Translations under genes and position numbers: made by a program
Shown here: in pieces, positions 22,490 to 50,972 of the stretch
Layout of the letters: each line of letters opens with the position of its first letter
Position numbering within the stretch: position 1 is the first letter of the stretch
Assembly: GCF_001008165.2 (NCBI RefSeq)
Contig: NZ_CP011452.2
Coordinates: forward strand, 2,542,001 to 2,606,000
From: Croceibacterium atlanticum
GTDB lineage: Bacteria > Pseudomonadota > Alphaproteobacteria > Sphingomonadales > Sphingomonadaceae
Reading direction: 5' to 3'
Length of the DNA stretch: 64,000 bases
Notes under the pieces: generated by a model
The model's input: the letters and a program-made list of their open reading frames with translations, nothing else
Databases searched by the model: none
What the model was told of the DNA's origin: nothing

Positions 22490-22831
22490 CTAGAAATCCA
22501 GATCATCGTCGCTGACAGCGTGGGTCTTCTGGGGCAGGCGGGACAAATCCTCGCTGATGCCAGCCCGGTCACTGTCTGGGGTTACCAGCTCGGCAAGGCG
22601 CTGTGTCATCCCCAGGACATGCAGGGCGCTCGCCAGAACCGCGAGGCCCACGGTAGGATCTCCCGCTTCGAGGCGTTGCAGCGTTTGAACCGAGACGATC
22701 ATGCGCTCGGCCATTAAACGCTGAGGAAGTTTTCTCCGGCGGCGAGCAAGGGCGATATCCTTACCTAGCCGTGTAATCGCACGTTGGCTCTGGGGCGGTA
22801 GTCCGCTAGCAGCTCGAGACGAACGGGGCAT
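22490..22831 (-). CDS. hipB: HipB-like XRE-family antitoxin
   Basis: A 113-residue DNA-binding protein. The helix-turn-helix is at about residues 22-60: GKDIALARRRRKLPQRLMAERMIVSVQTLQRLEAGDPTVGLAVLASAL, typical of XRE/HipB. The C-terminal tail is acidic and ends SDDDLDF, a form like those that contact the toxin or are proteolysed in HipB. It is immediately upstream of hipA. A perfect pair of inverted repeats lies 11-54 bp upstream of its start, which is the likely autorepression site. Confidence 0.9.
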   Translation of the reverse strand: MPRSSRAASGLPPQSQRAITRLGKDIALARRRRKLPQRLMAERMIVSVQTLQRLEAGDPTVGLAVLASALHVLGMTQRLAELVTPDSDRAGISEDLSRLPQKTHAVSDDDLDF

Positions 22832-22841
22832 GGCCCGATAT

Positions 22842-22885
22842 ATGACATATCATGCTAAATTCCGCAAATAGAAATGATATGTCAT
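22842..22885. promoter_or_regulatory. Putative HipB operator (inverted pair)
   Basis: ATGACATATCAT (22842-22853) and its exact reverse complement ATGATATGTCAT (22874-22885) are separated by 20 bp, just upstream of hipB. Each half is itself nearly palindromic (ATGA...TCAT). Two dyads two helical turns apart upstream of hipBA is the expected layout for cooperative HipB binding and autorepression. Confidence 0.75.
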
Positions 22886-23206
22886 GTTTTTGTGCTCTTT
22901 CGCTTGAAGCAGATTTACCGAAGGAAGATGCTTCACCGCCTCCTGCACGAGGCTTACAATGACCATGACTGAGTGGAGAGGCGCTAGTGAGCGGTCGCTA
23001 GGCCGCGGCTTGACCATCGTACTTCAAAAGTCGCTGTGCAGTTGCGCGAATTGTCTCAGCGACTATATCGCAAACGTCACGCATGTCGGCACAAGCCGAC
23101 AGCCTCGGAAGAATTCCGAGGTCCCGTCCTCCAGTTGGAGGTTAACCGGCGGACCCTGCAGAGGGTTCGCCGAATTTCGTTCGAACGCTCTCGCAGGTCC
23201 AACCCG
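22886..23206. other. Non-coding stretch containing a tandem hairpin array
   Basis: No credible gene. From 23030 to 23187 five inverted repeats follow one another: 23030-23036/23057-23063 (7 bp), 23085-23090/23095-23100 (6 bp, ACAA loop), 23103-23110/23114-23121 (8 bp, GAA loop), 23128-23132/23137-23141 (5 bp) and 23147-23157/23162-23172 (11 bp with one G-U, GCAG loop), then the palindrome CGTTCGAACG at 23178-23187. Short loops with perfect stems suggest a structured RNA or a single-strand DNA landmark such as an origin of transfer or priming site. Confidence 0.5.
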
Positions 23207-23461
23207 ATGGAGCATCGAATGCATTATTCAGACGAGGAAATCGAACGCGCGAAGACATTATTCGCTCGTGAAAATGATCAACCCGGCCATGGCAGAATGG
23301 CGGTTGCCGCGATGGCGGGAATGAGCAAGCCCGGCAAAATCAGCCATATCACTCATCGACGGACTTGGCGGGACTACCTTCCGAAGGCACGACGCGATTT
23401 GCAAAAGGAAAGATCGGACCGGAATTTTCGATTAGGTAACGTGTCGCATGATCTAAACTGA
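23207..23461 (+). CDS. Hypothetical small protein
   Basis: A possible 84-residue basic protein starting MEHRMHYSDEEIERAKTLFA (ATG at 23207 or 23219). The frame is open much further upstream, but that part runs through the hairpin array and has an unconvincing, Arg-rich translation. The middle part (GHGRMAVAAMAGMSKPGKIS) has plausible codon use. I recognise no family. It could be a small element-borne regulator or merely an open frame; the tail (DLQKERSDRNFRLGNVSH) is hydrophilic. Confidence 0.35.
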   Translation: MEHRMHYSDEEIERAKTLFARENDQPGHGRMAVAAMAGMSKPGKISHITHRRTWRDYLPKARRDLQKERSDRNFRLGNVSHDLN

Positions 23462-23628
23462 CCAGGTCGTGGGGCAGCAATAAGGATCAATGGCGCTAGT
23501 GAGAAGTCACTACGAATAATCGGTAGACCTCGCGGGTGAGCGGCGATGTCGATGTGACGCTCAAATCGACGGGCTCGCAGTGCAGACGTGAATCCCCTCC
23601 GACCTGTTCTTACAACACAGAAGGGCTG

Positions 23629-23676
23629 GAGGGGAGGAGGGCCTTTGTGAGCGAGCCGAAAGGATCGCGATGTGCC
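23629..23676 (+). promoter_or_regulatory. Leader of the Toprim gene (weak copy of recurring leader)
   Basis: A purine-rich run followed by GAGGGCCTTTGTGAGCG, similar to the front part of the leaders at 24590, 29903, 41003 and 42478. It lacks the ATCAGGAG box; AAAGGATCG takes its place before the start codon. Inclusion in the set is tentative. Confidence 0.35.
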
Positions 23677-24582
23677 ATGTCCCACCGATATTCCACCAAG
23701 ATAAGCTCTTTGGAAGAAGCCGCCCGCCGCATCTGTGAAAACCGGGGCGGCAAATGGTCCGGCACAAAGGGCATGGCCTGCTGCCCTGCGCATGACGACC
23801 GTACGCCGTCACTCGGTGTGTCACTCGGGCGAGGAGCCATTCTCCTCCATTGCTTTGCCGGATGCGATCAGGAGTCCGTGCTCGCAGCGCTAGCGCGTGA
23901 AGGCGTACCGGCGTCAACCTTGTTTTCGGAAGGTGCAATCGAGCCCACGATGGACACTGGTCACGCAGCGAAGCCTTCGGCCGCTGCCTTGCGCATCTGG
24001 CGCGATGCGCAACCGCTGCTTACCAGTCCGGCAAAGGCTTACTTGGAGAGCCGAGGCATTCTCGCCGCATCGTCAGCGCTCCGCTTTCATCCGCGAACAC
24101 CGCTTGGCCCGAAGGGACGCACCCGCTTTTTGCCGGCCATGATCTCGGCGGTCAGTCTCGATGAGGGGTCGATCGCCATCCATCGCACATTCCTTTCGGG
24201 CAATGCCAAGGCCGAATTCGACAAACCGAAGCGCGCGCTCGGCGCGCTCGGTGAAGCTGCCGTCCGCCTCTTCGCTCCGGTTTCCGGCAAGCTCGGCCTC
24301 GCCGAGGGCATCGAAAGCGCGATGTCGGCCTATGCTCTTACCGGCATCCCCGTCTGGGCGACCCTGGGCAATGAGCGGTTCGGCCTCGTCAGCGTGCCTG
24401 AGAGCGTGACCGAGCTTCATCTCTTCGTCGATCACGATGCTGGCGGCGAGCTAGCCGCGTCCCGTGGCCTGGCCGCTTATGCCCACGATGGGCGGTCAAT
24501 CCACGTTCGCAAGCCTTCCTTAAACGACACCGACTGGAACGATGAACTCACGGCATGGCTGCGCCGCAAAGCGGCGCGGTAG
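23677..24582 (+). CDS. Toprim/zinc-finger primase-like protein (DUF7146-type)
   Basis: A 301-residue protein starting MSHRYSTKISSLEEAARRIC at 23677. The N-terminus has a CHC2-like zinc finger pattern (MACCPAHDDRTPSLGVSLG...ILLHCFAGCD). A linker region, often annotated as DUF7146, follows, then a Toprim-like core: KLGLAEGIESAMSA supplies the Glu and ELHLFVDHDAGGELAAS the DxD pair. Such proteins are usual on alphaproteobacterial plasmids and ICEs and are thought to prime or handle single-stranded DNA during transfer, without a full DnaG. It is followed 75 bp later by the methyltransferase-helicase gene, and is probably part of the same mobile-element module. Confidence 0.82.
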   Translation: MSHRYSTKISSLEEAARRICENRGGKWSGTKGMACCPAHDDRTPSLGVSLGRGAILLHCFAGCDQESVLAALAREGVPASTLFSEGAIEPTMDTGHAAKPSAAALRIWRDAQPLLTSPAKAYLESRGILAASSALRFHPRTPLGPKGRTRFLPAMISAVSLDEGSIAIHRTFLSGNAKAEFDKPKRALGALGEAAVRLFAPVSGKLGLAEGIESAMSAYALTGIPVWATLGNERFGLVSVPESVTELHLFVDHDAGGELAASRGLAAYAHDGRSIHVRKPSLNDTDWNDELTAWLRRKAAR

Positions 24583-28970: not shown

Positions 28971-29240
28971 ATGAAGCTGGACCAGCGCATCAAACCGATC
29001 AGCTATCTGAAGGCCCACAGCGCCGAAATTATCCGGGAGATTGGAGATGGCGCCGGGCCAATGGTCATCACGCAGAATGGCGAAGCCAAGGCAGTTCTGC
29101 AGGATGTCGCCAGCTACGAGCGCGCACAGGAAACGCTCGCTCTGCTAAAACTTCTGGCGCTCGGACAGGCCGATGTTGCCGCCGGTCGGACCCGCCTGGT
29201 GGCAGGCCTTGCGGATCGCGTACGGGGTAAGTCAAACTGA
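28971..29240 (+). CDS. Phd/YefM-family antitoxin
   Basis: An 89-residue antitoxin with the Phd/YefM N-terminal fold: IKPISYLKAHSAEIIREIGDGAGPMVITQNGEAKAVLQDVASYER. The pattern of an SYLK/AEII helix, then VITQNGEAKAVL strand and SYE helix, is typical. The C-terminal half is helical and would block the toxin. The stop codon directly abuts the ATG of the ParE-like gene, as in coupled toxin-antitoxin operons. The inverted repeat upstream probably binds this protein. It likely contributes to element maintenance. Confidence 0.88.
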   Translation: MKLDQRIKPISYLKAHSAEIIREIGDGAGPMVITQNGEAKAVLQDVASYERAQETLALLKLLALGQADVAAGRTRLVAGLADRVRGKSN

Positions 29241-29600
29241 ATGATGACGGCCGCCGTAGCGATCGAGATCACCTCCGGTGCGGAGCGCGATCTCACGGGT
29301 ATCTGGCAGCGCCGCCTGACGCAGCGCGGGCCGGATGGCGACGATGGTGCGGACGCACTGCTGGATGACATTGTCGCGTCTATCGAATCCCTTGTGAACA
29401 ATCCTGAGAAAGGACCGGTTCCACCGGAACTTGAGGCTCTCGGGATTACCGACTTTCGGCAATTGTCGCGCTTTCCGTTCCGCATCATCTACGGGTATCA
29501 GCCCGAGCCAGCACCCGGTCAAGTGACCGTGTTCGTAATCGCTGATGCGCGTCGGGATTTTCGGACGCTTCTCGAAGAGCGCTTGCTTAGCAGCGGATAG
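29241..29600 (+). CDS. ParE/RelE-family toxin
   Basis: A 119-residue toxin of the ParE/RelE superfamily: IEITSGAERDLTGIWQRRL at the N-terminus, a central helix with DDIVASIESLVNNPEKGPV and the C-terminal FRIIYGYQP...VTVFVIADARRDFRTLLEERL strands. The pattern fits ParE (gyrase poison) as well as RelE-like RNA cleavage; a short sequence cannot decide. It starts at the base after the antitoxin stop, so the pair is translated together. The helicase gene ends 60 bp upstream of the antitoxin. Confidence 0.85.
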   Translation: MMTAAVAIEITSGAERDLTGIWQRRLTQRGPDGDDGADALLDDIVASIESLVNNPEKGPVPPELEALGITDFRQLSRFPFRIIYGYQPEPAPGQVTVFVIADARRDFRTLLEERLLSSG

Positions 29601-34820: not shown

Positions 34821-39237
<4,417 letters not shown>

Positions 39238-46511: not shown

Positions 46512-47671
46512 GGTATTTCCCGATGAACCGTAAACGTCTGGCCGTCGTGATCGGCCTTGCCATTCTCTTTGTAGTCGCGGCGCTCATGCTGTGGCCCGAT
46601 AACAAAGCTGACCAAAACGCCGAGGAGACGAGTGAGGAGGTCGAGCTTCCCGAAGGCCTTGTCCTGCTTGGCGCCGAACAAATTGAAGCGTCCCAGATAG
46701 TGGTTGAAACCGTCGGCCAGGGATCGGCGGTCGAGCTGGTCTTCCCGGCCACCGTCGCGGCAAGCCCGACGGCAAGTGCCCGCATCGATGCCCGCGCGGC
46801 GGGCGTGGTCCGCAGTGTCGGCAAAACGCTGGGCGATTACGTGAGGCAGGGCGAGACGATTGCCCGCATCGAGAGCGCCGACGCGGCTGCTCTCGCAGCG
46901 CAGTTGAGCGCAGCACGCGCGAGGGTCAACGAACTGTCCGCTGCCTACGATCGGGAGCGCCGCCTGTTCGAGGCCAATGTCACCGCACGGCAGGATCTCG
47001 AGGCCGCGCGAGCAAATCTGCAGGTCGCCCAGTCGGAACTTGCGCGCGCCCAGGCGGCAGTCTCCGCGGCGGGCGTTAGCGGCGACGGGCGCTCCCTTGC
47101 GGTTACGAGCCCGCTCGCGGGCAGAGTGACCTCGGCGCCTATCGTTCTCGGTTCCTTCGTCGATGCCGGGGAAGAACTCTATCAGGTCGTGAATCCGAAC
47201 GGCATGCAGGTCGAGGTTGCCCTCCCGTCGGCTGAAGCAAGCCGCATCCAGCCTGGCGACGAGGCGACGCTGGAAATCGCGGACAACCGGGAAGTGGGTG
47301 CGCGCGTGCGGTCTGTCACTCCCTCGCTCGATCCCGAAAGCCGCAGCGCTACGGCGGTCCTGTCGCTGGCAAGGCCGATTCCCGGCCTGCAGCCCGGGGC
47401 CTTCCTGCAGGCACGTATCCGCCCTTCGGGTGAGGTCGATACAGGCCGCATGTCGGTGCCGGAAAGTGCCGTCCAGACAATCGATGGCGCAGAAGTGGTC
47501 TTCGTTCGCACGCGCCGCGGGTTTCAAGCCCGTCCGGTGGTCACCGGTGCGCGTTCGGGAGGACGGGTGGTCATCGAGTCCGGTCTCGAAGCGCAGTGGC
47601 GGATCGCCACCACCAATGCCTTTTTGCTGAAGGCTGAACTCGAGAAGGAGGAGGCCGAGCATGGACACTGA
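46508..47671 (+). CDS. RND periplasmic adaptor, CzcB type (copy 2)
   Basis: A 387-residue adaptor anchored by an N-terminal helix (RKRLAVVIGLAILFVVAALML), unlike the lipoprotein adaptor of copy 1. The core has AAGVVRSVGKTLGDYVRQGETIARI (lipoyl half-domain), a long helical hairpin and LAGRVTSAPIVLGSFVDAGEEL. The tail ends EEAEHGH, possibly a metal-binding end. It overlaps czcC by ATGA and the RND gene by about 11 bp. It lacks the extra N-terminal CzcB domain seen in copy 1, so metal specificity may differ. Confidence 0.9.
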   Translation: MRYFPMNRKRLAVVIGLAILFVVAALMLWPDNKADQNAEETSEEVELPEGLVLLGAEQIEASQIVVETVGQGSAVELVFPATVAASPTASARIDARAAGVVRSVGKTLGDYVRQGETIARIESADAAALAAQLSAARARVNELSAAYDRERRLFEANVTARQDLEAARANLQVAQSELARAQAAVSAAGVSGDGRSLAVTSPLAGRVTSAPIVLGSFVDAGEELYQVVNPNGMQVEVALPSAEASRIQPGDEATLEIADNREVGARVRSVTPSLDPESRSATAVLSLARPIPGLQPGAFLQARIRPSGEVDTGRMSVPESAVQTIDGAEVVFVRTRRGFQARPVVTGARSGGRVVIESGLEAQWRIATTNAFLLKAELEKEEAEHGH

Positions 47672-50600
47672 TCACATGCAGGACGCGGATCGCTCCCACC
47701 ACCATGGCCTGATCGGCATGATCCTCGACGTCGCCGTGCGCTTTCGCTGGGCGATGGTCGTGCTGACGCTCGGTGTGGCAATCTATGGCGTGGTGAATTT
47801 GCTCCGCCTGCCCATCGATGCCGTGCCCGATATCACCAACGTACAGGTGCAGATCAACACCGAGGCACCAGCCTTGTCGCCCTCGCAAGTCGAGACGCAG
47901 GTCACCTATCCCGTTGAAACCGGGCTTGCCGGTATCGAGGGTCTGGAGATGACCCGCTCGATATCGCGCAACGGGTTCAGCCAGGTGACCGCAATTTTCG
48001 AGGAAGGGACCGACATCTATTTCGCGCGTCAGCAGGTCAACGAACGGCTGACGCCCATAAGCGCCTCCCTACCCGAGGGTGCCGAACCGGTGATGGGACC
48101 CATCTCGACCGGCTTGGGCGAAGTGCTCATGTATACCATCGAGTACGAGTTTCCGGACGGCAAGGAAGCACCGCGGGGCGGAGCGGTCGGTTGGCAGTCC
48201 GACGGGAGTTTTGTGACCGAACGTGGCGACCGGCTCGACAGCGATGTTGCCAAGGCTGCCTATCTGCGAACCATCCAGGACTGGGTGGTTGCACCCCTCA
48301 TGCGGTCGGTCGACGGTGTGGCAGGTGTCGACTCGATCGGCGGCTTCGAAAAGCAATACCTCGTTCAACCCGATCCCGCGCGAATGACCGGATACGGTTT
48401 GTCGTTCGACGAAGTGATTACCGCGCTGGAAGCGGCCAACCTCGCCGAAGGCGCCAATTTCGTCGAGCGGGCCGGTGAAGCGCTCCTCGCCCGGGTCGAT
48501 GCGCGCCTCGGCAGTGTCGAGGATATCGAGCAGGCGGTCGTTTCCACCCGCGAGGGGGTCCCCATTCGCGTAGGCGACATTGCCACGGTCAGCATCGGTG
48601 GCGACCTGCGAACGGGCGCGGCGTCGCTGAATGGCGATGAAGCAGTCGTGGGTACCGTGCTCATGCGCGCGGGCGAGAACAGCCGCACCGTTTCGGCCCA
48701 GGCGGCCGAACGGCTCGAGGAAGTTCGCAGCTCCCTGCCGGAAGGAATTGTCGCGGAGATCGTCTACAACCGGTCTTCGCTGGTCGATGCCACGATCGCG
48801 ACCGTCGAGAAGAACCTCGTTGAAGGCGCGCTTCTGGTGATCGCAATCCTGTTCTTGCTGTTGGGAAATATCCGGGCAGCGATCATCGCGGCGCTGGTCA
48901 TTCCTTTTTCCATGCTGATGGCATCGATCGGAATGAACCGGCTCGGCGTTTCGGGCAACCTCATGAGCCTGGGTGCGCTGGACTTCGGCTTGATCGTCGA
49001 TGGTGCAGTCATCATCGTCGAGAACAGCGTCGCGAGGCTCGCGGCCCGACAGGAACACGAAGGGCGACTTCTCACACTGGGCGAGAGGCTGACGGAAACG
49101 CGGCTTGCCGCGCAGGAAATGATCAAGCCGACTGTGTACGGGCAGGCGATCATTCTTCTCGTCTTCGCACCGCTTCTGACCTTTACCGGGGTCGAAGGCA
49201 AAACCTTCTCGCCCATGGCGATCACGGTCATGCTCGCGCTCGCCTCGGCGTTCGTGTTGTCGCTGACCTTCGTCCCGGCAATGATCGCCATCCTGCTCAA
49301 CAAGAAGCTGACGGAAAAGGAGGTCAAGCCGATCCGGATCGCCAAGGAGCGATACGGACCGCTGGTCCGCAGGGCGATCACCCGCCCTTGGCCGGTCATC
49401 GGCATGGGCGTCGGCATCTTCGCCTTTGCGGCCTTCGTGTTCAGCTTCCTCGGGAGCGAGTTCACACCGCAATTGGACGAGCGCGACATCGCCGTGCAAT
49501 CGCTGCGTATTCCTTCGACATCGCTCGAACGTTCGCTCGCGATGCAAAGGCGGGTCGAGGACCGGCTCGAGCAGTTTGAGCAGGTCGAGCTCGTCTTTTC
49601 GCGGACGGGCACGGCGGAAGTGGCCAGTGACCCGATGCCGCCGAACGCTTCCGATGCGTACGTGATCCTCAAACCCCGTGAGGAATGGCCCGATCCCGAC
49701 CTCGCCAAGGACGAGTTGGTCGCGCAAATGGAGAGCGCCCTCAGCAGTCTCGTCGGCAACCTTTACGAGTTCAGCCAACCGATCGAATTGCGGTTCAACG
49801 AATTGATCGCAGGCGTTCGCGGAGATGTTGCCGTCAAGATCTACGGAGACGATCTCAGCGCCATGACCTCGGCGGCGAACGAGGTTGCGGGCGCGCTGCG
49901 CAATGTCGACGGCGCCGCGGACGTCAAGGTCCAGCAAGTGACCGGGTTCCCCACCCTCGATATTGCCTTCGATCGGCCAGCGATTGCCCGTTACGGGCTG
50001 AAGGTCGAAGACGTTGCGCAATCGGTGGCGATCGCACTGGGCGGTCGGCCTGCGGGCCTCGTTTTCGAAGGCGATCGCCGCTTCGATGTGGTTGTGCGGT
50101 TGTCGGACGCGACCCGCGACGATTTCGACCAGTTGGGTGCTTTGCCGGTGCTGCTCCCGAACGGGGCAACCATACCGCTACGCTCGGTTGCCGAGTTCCG
50201 TGTGGTGGATGGTCTCGCGGAGGTTCGCCGGGAACAGGGACGCAGACTGGTGATCGTCTCGTCCAACGTGCGAGAACGCGACCTCGGGTCTTTTGTAGAA
50301 GAGGCCCAGGAAAGGGTCGCGGCGCAGGTCGAACTGCCCGCTGCCGCGTTTATCGAGTGGGGCGGGCAATACCAGAACCTCCAAGCCGCTCAGGAAAGAC
50401 TTCAGATAGTCATTCCCATCGCGTTCGCGGTCATTCTCCTGCTGCTTTACATGGCGGTTGGGGGCTGGGTGCCGGCGCTCGCCGTATTCAGCGCGATCCC
50501 GTTGGCCCTGGCAGGCGGAATATTCTCCTTGGCTCTGCGCGGGATGCCATTCTCGGTATCTGCGGCGGTAGGCTTTATCGCCCTGTCGGGCGTGGCGACC

Positions 50601-50972
50601 TTGAATGGCCTTGTGATGGTGACTGCGATCCGTCAGCGGCTCGACAAGGGCATGGCGCTCGATGATGCGATCGTCGATGGTGGACTGGCGCGCCTGAGGC
50701 CGGTTCTCATGACCGCGCTCGTCGCATCGCTCGGCTTCGTGCCGATGGCCATTGCGACCGGGACCGGCGCGGAAGTGCAGCGTCCCTTGGCGACAGTCGT
50801 CATCGGAGGATTGATCACGGCCACCGCGCTCACCCTCTTCGTCTTGCCCGCAGTCTTGAAGCTGGTTTTCGGGACCAGAGAAGATGACCGGACCTGGCGA
50901 CAGCGCTGGTGGGAGCGGCTGCGGCGCAATTTGACAAGCGATGAGCAGCGCGAGCTGAAGGACATCGCATGA
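47661..50972 (+). CDS. Heavy-metal RND efflux pump, CzcA type (copy 2)
   Basis: A 1,103-residue HME-RND pump, about 50 longer than copy 1. The N-terminus carries an extra cytoplasmic His stretch (MDTDHMQDADRSHHHG). The proton-relay motif is [21 protein letters not shown] longer loop after YEFPDGKEAPRGGAVG is absent in copy 1. Core segments such as [15 protein letters not shown] and [20 protein letters not shown] are conserved. With the CzcB/CzcC encoded upstream it forms a tripartite efflux complex for divalent metals. The pump has all key residues. Confidence 0.94.
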   Translation: MDTDHMQDADRSHHHGLIGMILDVAVRFRWAMVVLTLGVAIYGVVNLLRLPIDAVPDITNVQVQINTEAPALSPSQVETQVTYPVETGLAGIEGLEMTRSISRNGFSQVTAIFEEGTDIYFARQQVNERLTPISASLPEGAEPVMGPISTGLGEVLMYTIEYEFPDGKEAPRGGAVGWQSDGSFVTERGDRLDSDVAKAAYLRTIQDWVVAPLMRSVDGVAGVDSIGGFEKQYLVQPDPARMTGYGLSFDEVITALEAANLAEGANFVERAGEALLARVDARLGSVEDIEQAVVSTREGVPIRVGDIATVSIGGDLRTGAASLNGDEAVVGTVLMRAGENSRTVSAQAAERLEEVRSSLPEGIVAEIVYNRSSLVDATIATVEKNLVEGALLVIAILFLLLGNIRAAIIAALVIPFSMLMASIGMNRLGVSGNLMSLGALDFGLIVDGAVIIVENSVARLAARQEHEGRLLTLGERLTETRLAAQEMIKPTVYGQAIILLVFAPLLTFTGVEGKTFSPMAITVMLALASAFVLSLTFVPAMIAILLNKKLTEKEVKPIRIAKERYGPLVRRAITRPWPVIGMGVGIFAFAAFVFSFLGSEFTPQLDERDIAVQSLRIPSTSLERSLAMQRRVEDRLEQFEQVELVFSRTGTAEVASDPMPPNASDAYVILKPREEWPDPDLAKDELVAQMESALSSLVGNLYEFSQPIELRFNELIAGVRGDVAVKIYGDDLSAMTSAANEVAGALRNVDGAADVKVQQVTGFPTLDIAFDRPAIARYGLKVEDVAQSVAIALGGRPAGLVFEGDRRFDVVVRLSDATRDDFDQLGALPVLLPNGATIPLRSVAEFRVVDGLAEVRREQGRRLVIVSSNVRERDLGSFVEEAQERVAAQVELPAAAFIEWGGQYQNLQAAQERLQIVIPIAFAVILLLLYMAVGGWVPALAVFSAIPLALAGGIFSLALRGMPFSVSAAVGFIALSGVATLNGLVMVTAIRQRLDKGMALDDAIVDGGLARLRPVLMTALVASLGFVPMAIATGTGAEVQRPLATVVIGGLITATALTLFVLPAVLKLVFGTREDDRTWRQRWWERLRRNLTSDEQRELKDIA

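Follow-up and report, generated by a model that had tools for sequence, protein, structure and literature searches.

A conserved structured RNA upstream of a small open reading frame in marine sphingomonads, a candidate attenuator-type leader

A dense cluster of hairpins lies between hipBA and a Toprim/DUF7146 gene at 23030-23187 of the window, i.e., the whole 64-kb stretch of Croceibacterium atlanticum DNA analyzed here. The cluster is real and exceptional, and comparison with its homologues supports a conserved structured RNA encoded on the + strand, ahead of a small ORF. We consider it slightly better than an even bet that 23076 to ~23180 constitutes the transcribed part of a structured cis-acting leader RNA for this ORF, of the attenuator type. 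The features of the locus are given in Table 1.

Table 1. Features of the hairpin array, the small ORF and the module that contains them (positions in the window; L numbers are locus handles)
Feature	Position	Strand	Remarks
Module (upstream part, RNA, ORF)	22946-23482	+	~537 bp; absent from L043, L057 and L058, which otherwise match
Promoter-like sequence	23042-23069	+	TTGCGC (23042-23047), 16-nt spacer, TATATC (23064-23069)
P1, 5' strand (GUCACGC)	23076-23082	+	can pair with 23149-23154 (GCGGAC)
Hairpin 2	23084-23101	+	U86-A99 to C-G in L102; loop variable; top pair lost in L013 and L025
Hairpin 3	23103-23121	+	C106-G118 to U-A and A110-U114 to U-A in L102; loop longer by 2 nt in L013 and L025; wobble changes (C>U) at 23104 and 23116
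Hairpin 4 (CCUCC/GGAGG)	23128-23141	+	stem paired in 9/9 homologues; different loop in L102; wobble change (C>U) at 23131
Hairpin 5 and tail	23147-23180	+	hairpin at 23147-23172; most likely an intrinsic terminator, weak in the window
Hairpin 6	23178-23221	+	predicted over the Shine-Dalgarno sequence and start codon of the small ORF
Shine-Dalgarno sequence (GGAG)	23209-23212	+	as in the window; AAGGAG in L102
Small ORF	23219-23461	+	ATG at 23219; 80 aa, MHYSDEEIERAK...; no known family

Each of the hairpins claimed for 23030-23187 in a preliminary description of this DNA was found in the sequence. As + strand RNA, the segment folded at -76 kcal/mol (z -6.8), which none of 200 shuffles equalled; the z-score was -5.0 for the - strand as RNA and about -5.5 for both strands when folded as DNA. 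When the whole 64 kb was scanned with 158-nt tiles at steps of 200 nt, the tile on the array had the lowest folding z-score of all 320 tiles (-6.2, the runner-up being at -3.9), and the density of perfect short-loop stems reached its maximum at the array among 3193 windows scanned. The density had been described as improbable, and these values bear this out. The hairpins as originally drawn fared unevenly: hairpins 2-5 on the + strand are supported, but conservation in the drawn form fails for the first hairpin at the 5' end (23030-23063) and for the final palindrome (23178-23187). The former shares bases with the conserved promoter-like sequence, and some of its pairs are lost in the homologous locus L025; the latter is broken in the divergent homologue L102. 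The Rfam 15 covariance models gave no match in the window at gathering score, and a permissive Rfam 15 search of 22950-23250 gave none up to an E-value of 10.

To obtain a set of loci, a scan was made with the neighboring Toprim/DUF7146 protein and 80 loci were fetched, from genomes titled sphingomonads or alphaproteobacterial MAGs. The whole region 22830-23700 is carried by 15 of them at 85-99.9% identity (L009-L013, L015, L017-L022, L025, L030 and L055), with the array homologue upstream of the Toprim/DUF7146 gene. Three loci (L043, L057 and L058) are without 22946-23482, the hipB promoter region being joined directly to the Toprim leader, and hipBA is present with the module absent in L069, L076 and L088 (only hipB lies within the contig of L076). 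The other 59 loci have neither the module nor, in the fetched DNA, hipBA, and a module without hipBA was found in none of the 80. The Toprim protein had been put forward as a possible partner of the array. This finds no support, the unit of RNA and small ORF being absent from three hipBA-Toprim loci of the same arrangement; moreover, the next gene downstream of the array is the small ORF and not the Toprim gene.

When 397 genomes of the family were searched with the small protein, additional close copies came to light, together with a single divergent one, L102, which is ~70% identical over the module and likewise located between hipBA and Toprim. Plasmids (PLSDB), searched by DNA and by the small protein, and phages (INPHARED), searched by DNA, yielded nothing of use, and pattern searches of IMG/VR yielded nothing. 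A profile of the small protein found no convincing relative outside the mobile-element-like region in 376 genomes of the class, and none in IMG/VR, PDB, PHROGs and NCBIfam; two weak genome matches of the profile looked like chance on inspection. A covariance model of the array RNA was also run over 396 genomes of the order Sphingomonadales. Its weak matches (L114, L115 and below) mainly had a terminator-like hairpin in common and were judged to be chance, because the ORFs around the best two give no small-ORF context. The region is one of marine sphingomonads and, going by these sequence searches, its distribution is narrow.

Structure and conservation were assessed in an alignment of nine homologues, comprising eight close ones and L102. 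The four-hairpin structure at 23084-23172 is 98.2% paired across the nine. Two-sided compensatory changes were observed at three pairs (23086-23099, 23106-23118 and 23110-23114), all of them in L102; no two-sided pair was left when the partners were slid by 1-3 columns, and the observed number was reached by 1 of 500 shuffles. Several changes in the hairpin stems are G.U-preserving, and no sequence departs from the G.U pair 23152-23167, as would be expected of RNA from the + strand. Invariant positions make up 21/22 in the linkers, 46/62 in the stems and 4/15 in the hairpin loops (Fisher p ~1e-4), and the indels of L013 and L025 are located in hairpin loops 3 and 5. The pairing is conserved across homologues, and the structured RNA that had been offered as one option for the array is favored by the compensatory changes, the G.U-preserving changes, the invariant G.U pair, and the promoter-like start and terminator-like end described below. 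We regard the covariation as good but not deep evidence, because it is drawn from one divergent sequence.

At the 5' end, AGTTG and CTATAT of the promoter-like sequence are retained in all nine aligned homologues, the version in L102 being TTGTAT-16-TATATC. This conservation suggests promoter activity, with transcription expected to start at ~23076; TTGCGC-16-TATATC was absent from the list produced by a consensus promoter scan. At the 3' end, hairpin 5 scored as terminator-like, and termination probably takes place here, which would give an RNA of ~100 nt. The bases next to the hairpin on its 3' side read TTTTTTT in L102 and AATTTCGTT, a weak tail, in the window; the earlier view that terminators do not explain the array, no T tract being present, is therefore wrong for hairpin 5. 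The form GGCGG..CCC..GGG.CGCC with a U-rich tail recurs in weak covariance-model matches elsewhere in sphingomonad genomes (L114, L115).

The small ORF, with its own Shine-Dalgarno sequence, follows the RNA in all 15 loci with the full-length module and in L102. It encodes 80 aa in the window, 71-80 aa in the close relatives and 67 aa in L102. Comparison of the copies indicates that it is under purifying selection: the substitutions have a third-position bias, and dN/dS over the first 71 codons was about 0.2 (0.12-0.34) for every pair with finite dS. Searches of Pfam, PHROGs and NCBIfam assigned the protein to no family. Its predicted structure is mostly helical at low confidence (pLDDT 67), and a fold search with this model gave no useful match.

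For a cis-acting leader, we envisage the following course of events. Transcription would begin just past TATATC, and the nascent RNA would first fold hairpins 2, 3 and 4, which P1 (GUCACGC with GCGGAC) would then close into a four-way junction with nearly invariant linker nucleotides. P1 would thereby take the 5' arm of hairpin 5; the same GCGGAC would form the 5' arm of the terminator, so that P1 and terminator are expected to exclude each other. If some ligand (metabolite, ion, protein or RNA) stabilized the junction, transcription would read through into the ORF; if the junction was not stabilized, hairpin 5 would form and the ~100-nt RNA would be released. The predicted P1 and terminator would hence represent an antiterminator/terminator choice in the manner of riboswitch-type leaders. 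With hairpin 5 deprived of its 3' arm, the predicted RNA fold changed, GUCACGC being paired to GCGGAC around hairpins 2-4. The pair probability of P1 was 0.63-0.97 in 8 of 9 nascent-RNA folds, P1 being disrupted in L030, and no covariation of P1 was found in the nine homologues, as its 5' strand is invariant and the single variable position of its 3' strand is 23149, changed in L030. Hairpin 6, a second hairpin over the Shine-Dalgarno sequence, may add translational control. De novo prediction gave it for each of the eight close homologues and, with a shorter stem, over the Shine-Dalgarno sequence of L102; its pair-change support is weak, with 54 of 500 shuffles as high.

Riboswitch and attenuator leaders share several properties with the RNA: the position in a 5' leader, the multi-hairpin junction, the near-invariant linkers, the predicted use of the 3' strand of P1 as the 5' arm of the terminator, and possible masking of the Shine-Dalgarno sequence. 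Both a conserved structured RNA in the 5' leader and a probable intrinsic terminator between RNA and ORF, two features of attenuating leaders, were found. In contrast to such leaders, the array RNA has no Rfam 15 match and a very narrow host range. A narrow distribution is unusual for metabolite riboswitches and counts against a leader, as do the sole strongly divergent homologue with its few covariation events, the P1 without covariation, the weakening of both P1 and terminator in L030, and the poor tail in the window. The leader explanation is grounded in the conserved structure, its strand, the purifying selection on the ORF and the presence or absence of the module; it would further entail that the promoter is used, that transcription terminates, that P1 acts as a switch and that the RNA controls the ORF.

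In the main rival, which we consider unlikely, the ~100-nt RNA released on termination would serve as a trans-acting antitoxin of the small protein, in a type III or AbiF-like manner. The order of parts agrees with that in ToxIN, a type III toxin-antitoxin system with promoter, structured RNA, leaky terminator and protein gene in a similarly small module (PMC8860590), and with that in RCd22-AbiF, in which a terminated RNA of ~100-130 nt, located 168 nt upstream of the gene (compared with ~143 nt here), neutralizes the protein (PMC12373285). In addition, RNA and ORF are gained and lost together, and two other toxin-antitoxin-like pairs, hipBA and PhdYeFM/ParE, are located nearby. By analogy, the module may work like these systems. 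However, the array hairpins differ in sequence and include no tandem repeat family, neither pseudoknot tandem repeats nor a downstream endoribonuclease toxin of the ToxN kind was found, and the protein is far smaller. RCd22 differs also by its two copies of the abiF motif and its Abi_2/AbiF protein, neither of which was found here; the gene after the RNA encodes 67-80 aa without a toxin or HEPN family match in Pfam or NCBIfam and without a useful fold match. The predicted P1 switch would moreover be superfluous for an RNA antitoxin.

A stand-alone, trans-acting small RNA that base-pairs with other mRNAs, the ORF being read separately, is less likely still. The promoter-like start and terminator-like end would delimit a ~100-nt RNA, part of which can pair with the start region of the ORF itself, but this region was the only base-pairing target identified in the window, where no seed longer than 11 nt was found elsewhere. 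Furthermore, the hairpin loops, the usual seed regions of small RNAs, are the most variable part, and the RNA is invariably accompanied by the ORF.

It is very improbable that the array simply opens a 141-codon gene (23036-23461) and that its hairpins are incidental. The window has no stop in this frame, whose third position takes 7 of 10 substitutions at 23098-23187, but in relatives the frame is broken by a 2-nt insertion at 23108 (L013 and L025), an extra base at 23159 (L025) and stops in the matching part of L102, and incidental hairpins would leave the compensatory changes unexplained. A coding explanation of the array, which the preliminary description had named as a possible refutation, was accordingly rejected, and coding was accepted just downstream, for 23219-23461. 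The poorest candidate is a function of the hairpins in single-stranded DNA, be it at an origin of transfer, a single-strand origin or a recombination site, for which the mobile-element-like region, the presence or absence of the module as a unit and the folding of the array as DNA could speak, but against which stand the invariant G.U position (G.T in DNA) and C>T wobble changes that fit RNA on one strand, the promoter-like and terminator-like parts, and the unchanged gene order in loci without the module; the few nic patterns tried matched neither strand, other nic types being possible, and the single-stranded-DNA options raised earlier, an origin of transfer among them, gained no positive evidence.

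The structured RNA may belong to an RNA family not described before, although we hold this only tentatively: either an orphan riboswitch-like junction on a mobile element that gates a small regulatory protein, or a repeat-less module of RNA antitoxin and small toxin. To our knowledge, the mobile elements of alphaproteobacteria have been little catalogued for structured regulatory RNAs. The RNA is missing from Rfam, its anatomy is clear, the predicted switch is testable, and the ORF appears to be under purifying selection. Should the RNA prove to be a sensor, it would reveal the way in which an element of this kind gates a small protein; should it instead act as an antitoxin, RNA and protein would make up an addiction module that has no repeats.

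The surroundings probably represent an integrated mobile element, because the module is patchy, the gene set comprises Toprim, strawberry-notch-helicase and ParB genes, and this set recurs in many genera. Several further observations were made in this neighborhood. Upstream of hipB, a perfect 12-bp inverted repeat (ATGACATATCAT/ATGATATGTCAT) at 22842-22885 is a probable HipB operator, beside which L011 has a 13-bp tandem duplication. The sequence GGCGCTAGTGAG flanks the array at 22980-22991 and 23492-23503, 512 bp apart; the copies in relatives differ (GGCGCTGGTGAG / GGCGCAAGTGAG), and the repeat could be accidental or stem from an old duplication. The Toprim leader at 23480-23676 is moderately structured (z -3.0) and is conserved even in loci without the module. 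Further downstream, a PhdYeFM antitoxin/ParE toxin pair (28971-29600) is located between the strawberry-notch helicase and ParB-like genes, and two large ORFs (34821-37982 and 47661-50972) resemble heavy-metal RND efflux pumps by eye, the first being adjoined by outer-membrane- and fusion-protein-like ORFs, likewise by eye. In L102, hipB and the RNA module are separated by an extra ORF of ~200 codons (~1930-2560), oriented like hipBA, which suggests that the hipB-to-module interval takes up cargo. Three Toprim loci without hipBA (L014, 1861-3090; L016, 1828-3057; L087, 1779-3032) have an upstream ORF of 409-417 aa that by eye is tyrosine integrase-like, suggesting that an end of the element is nearby.
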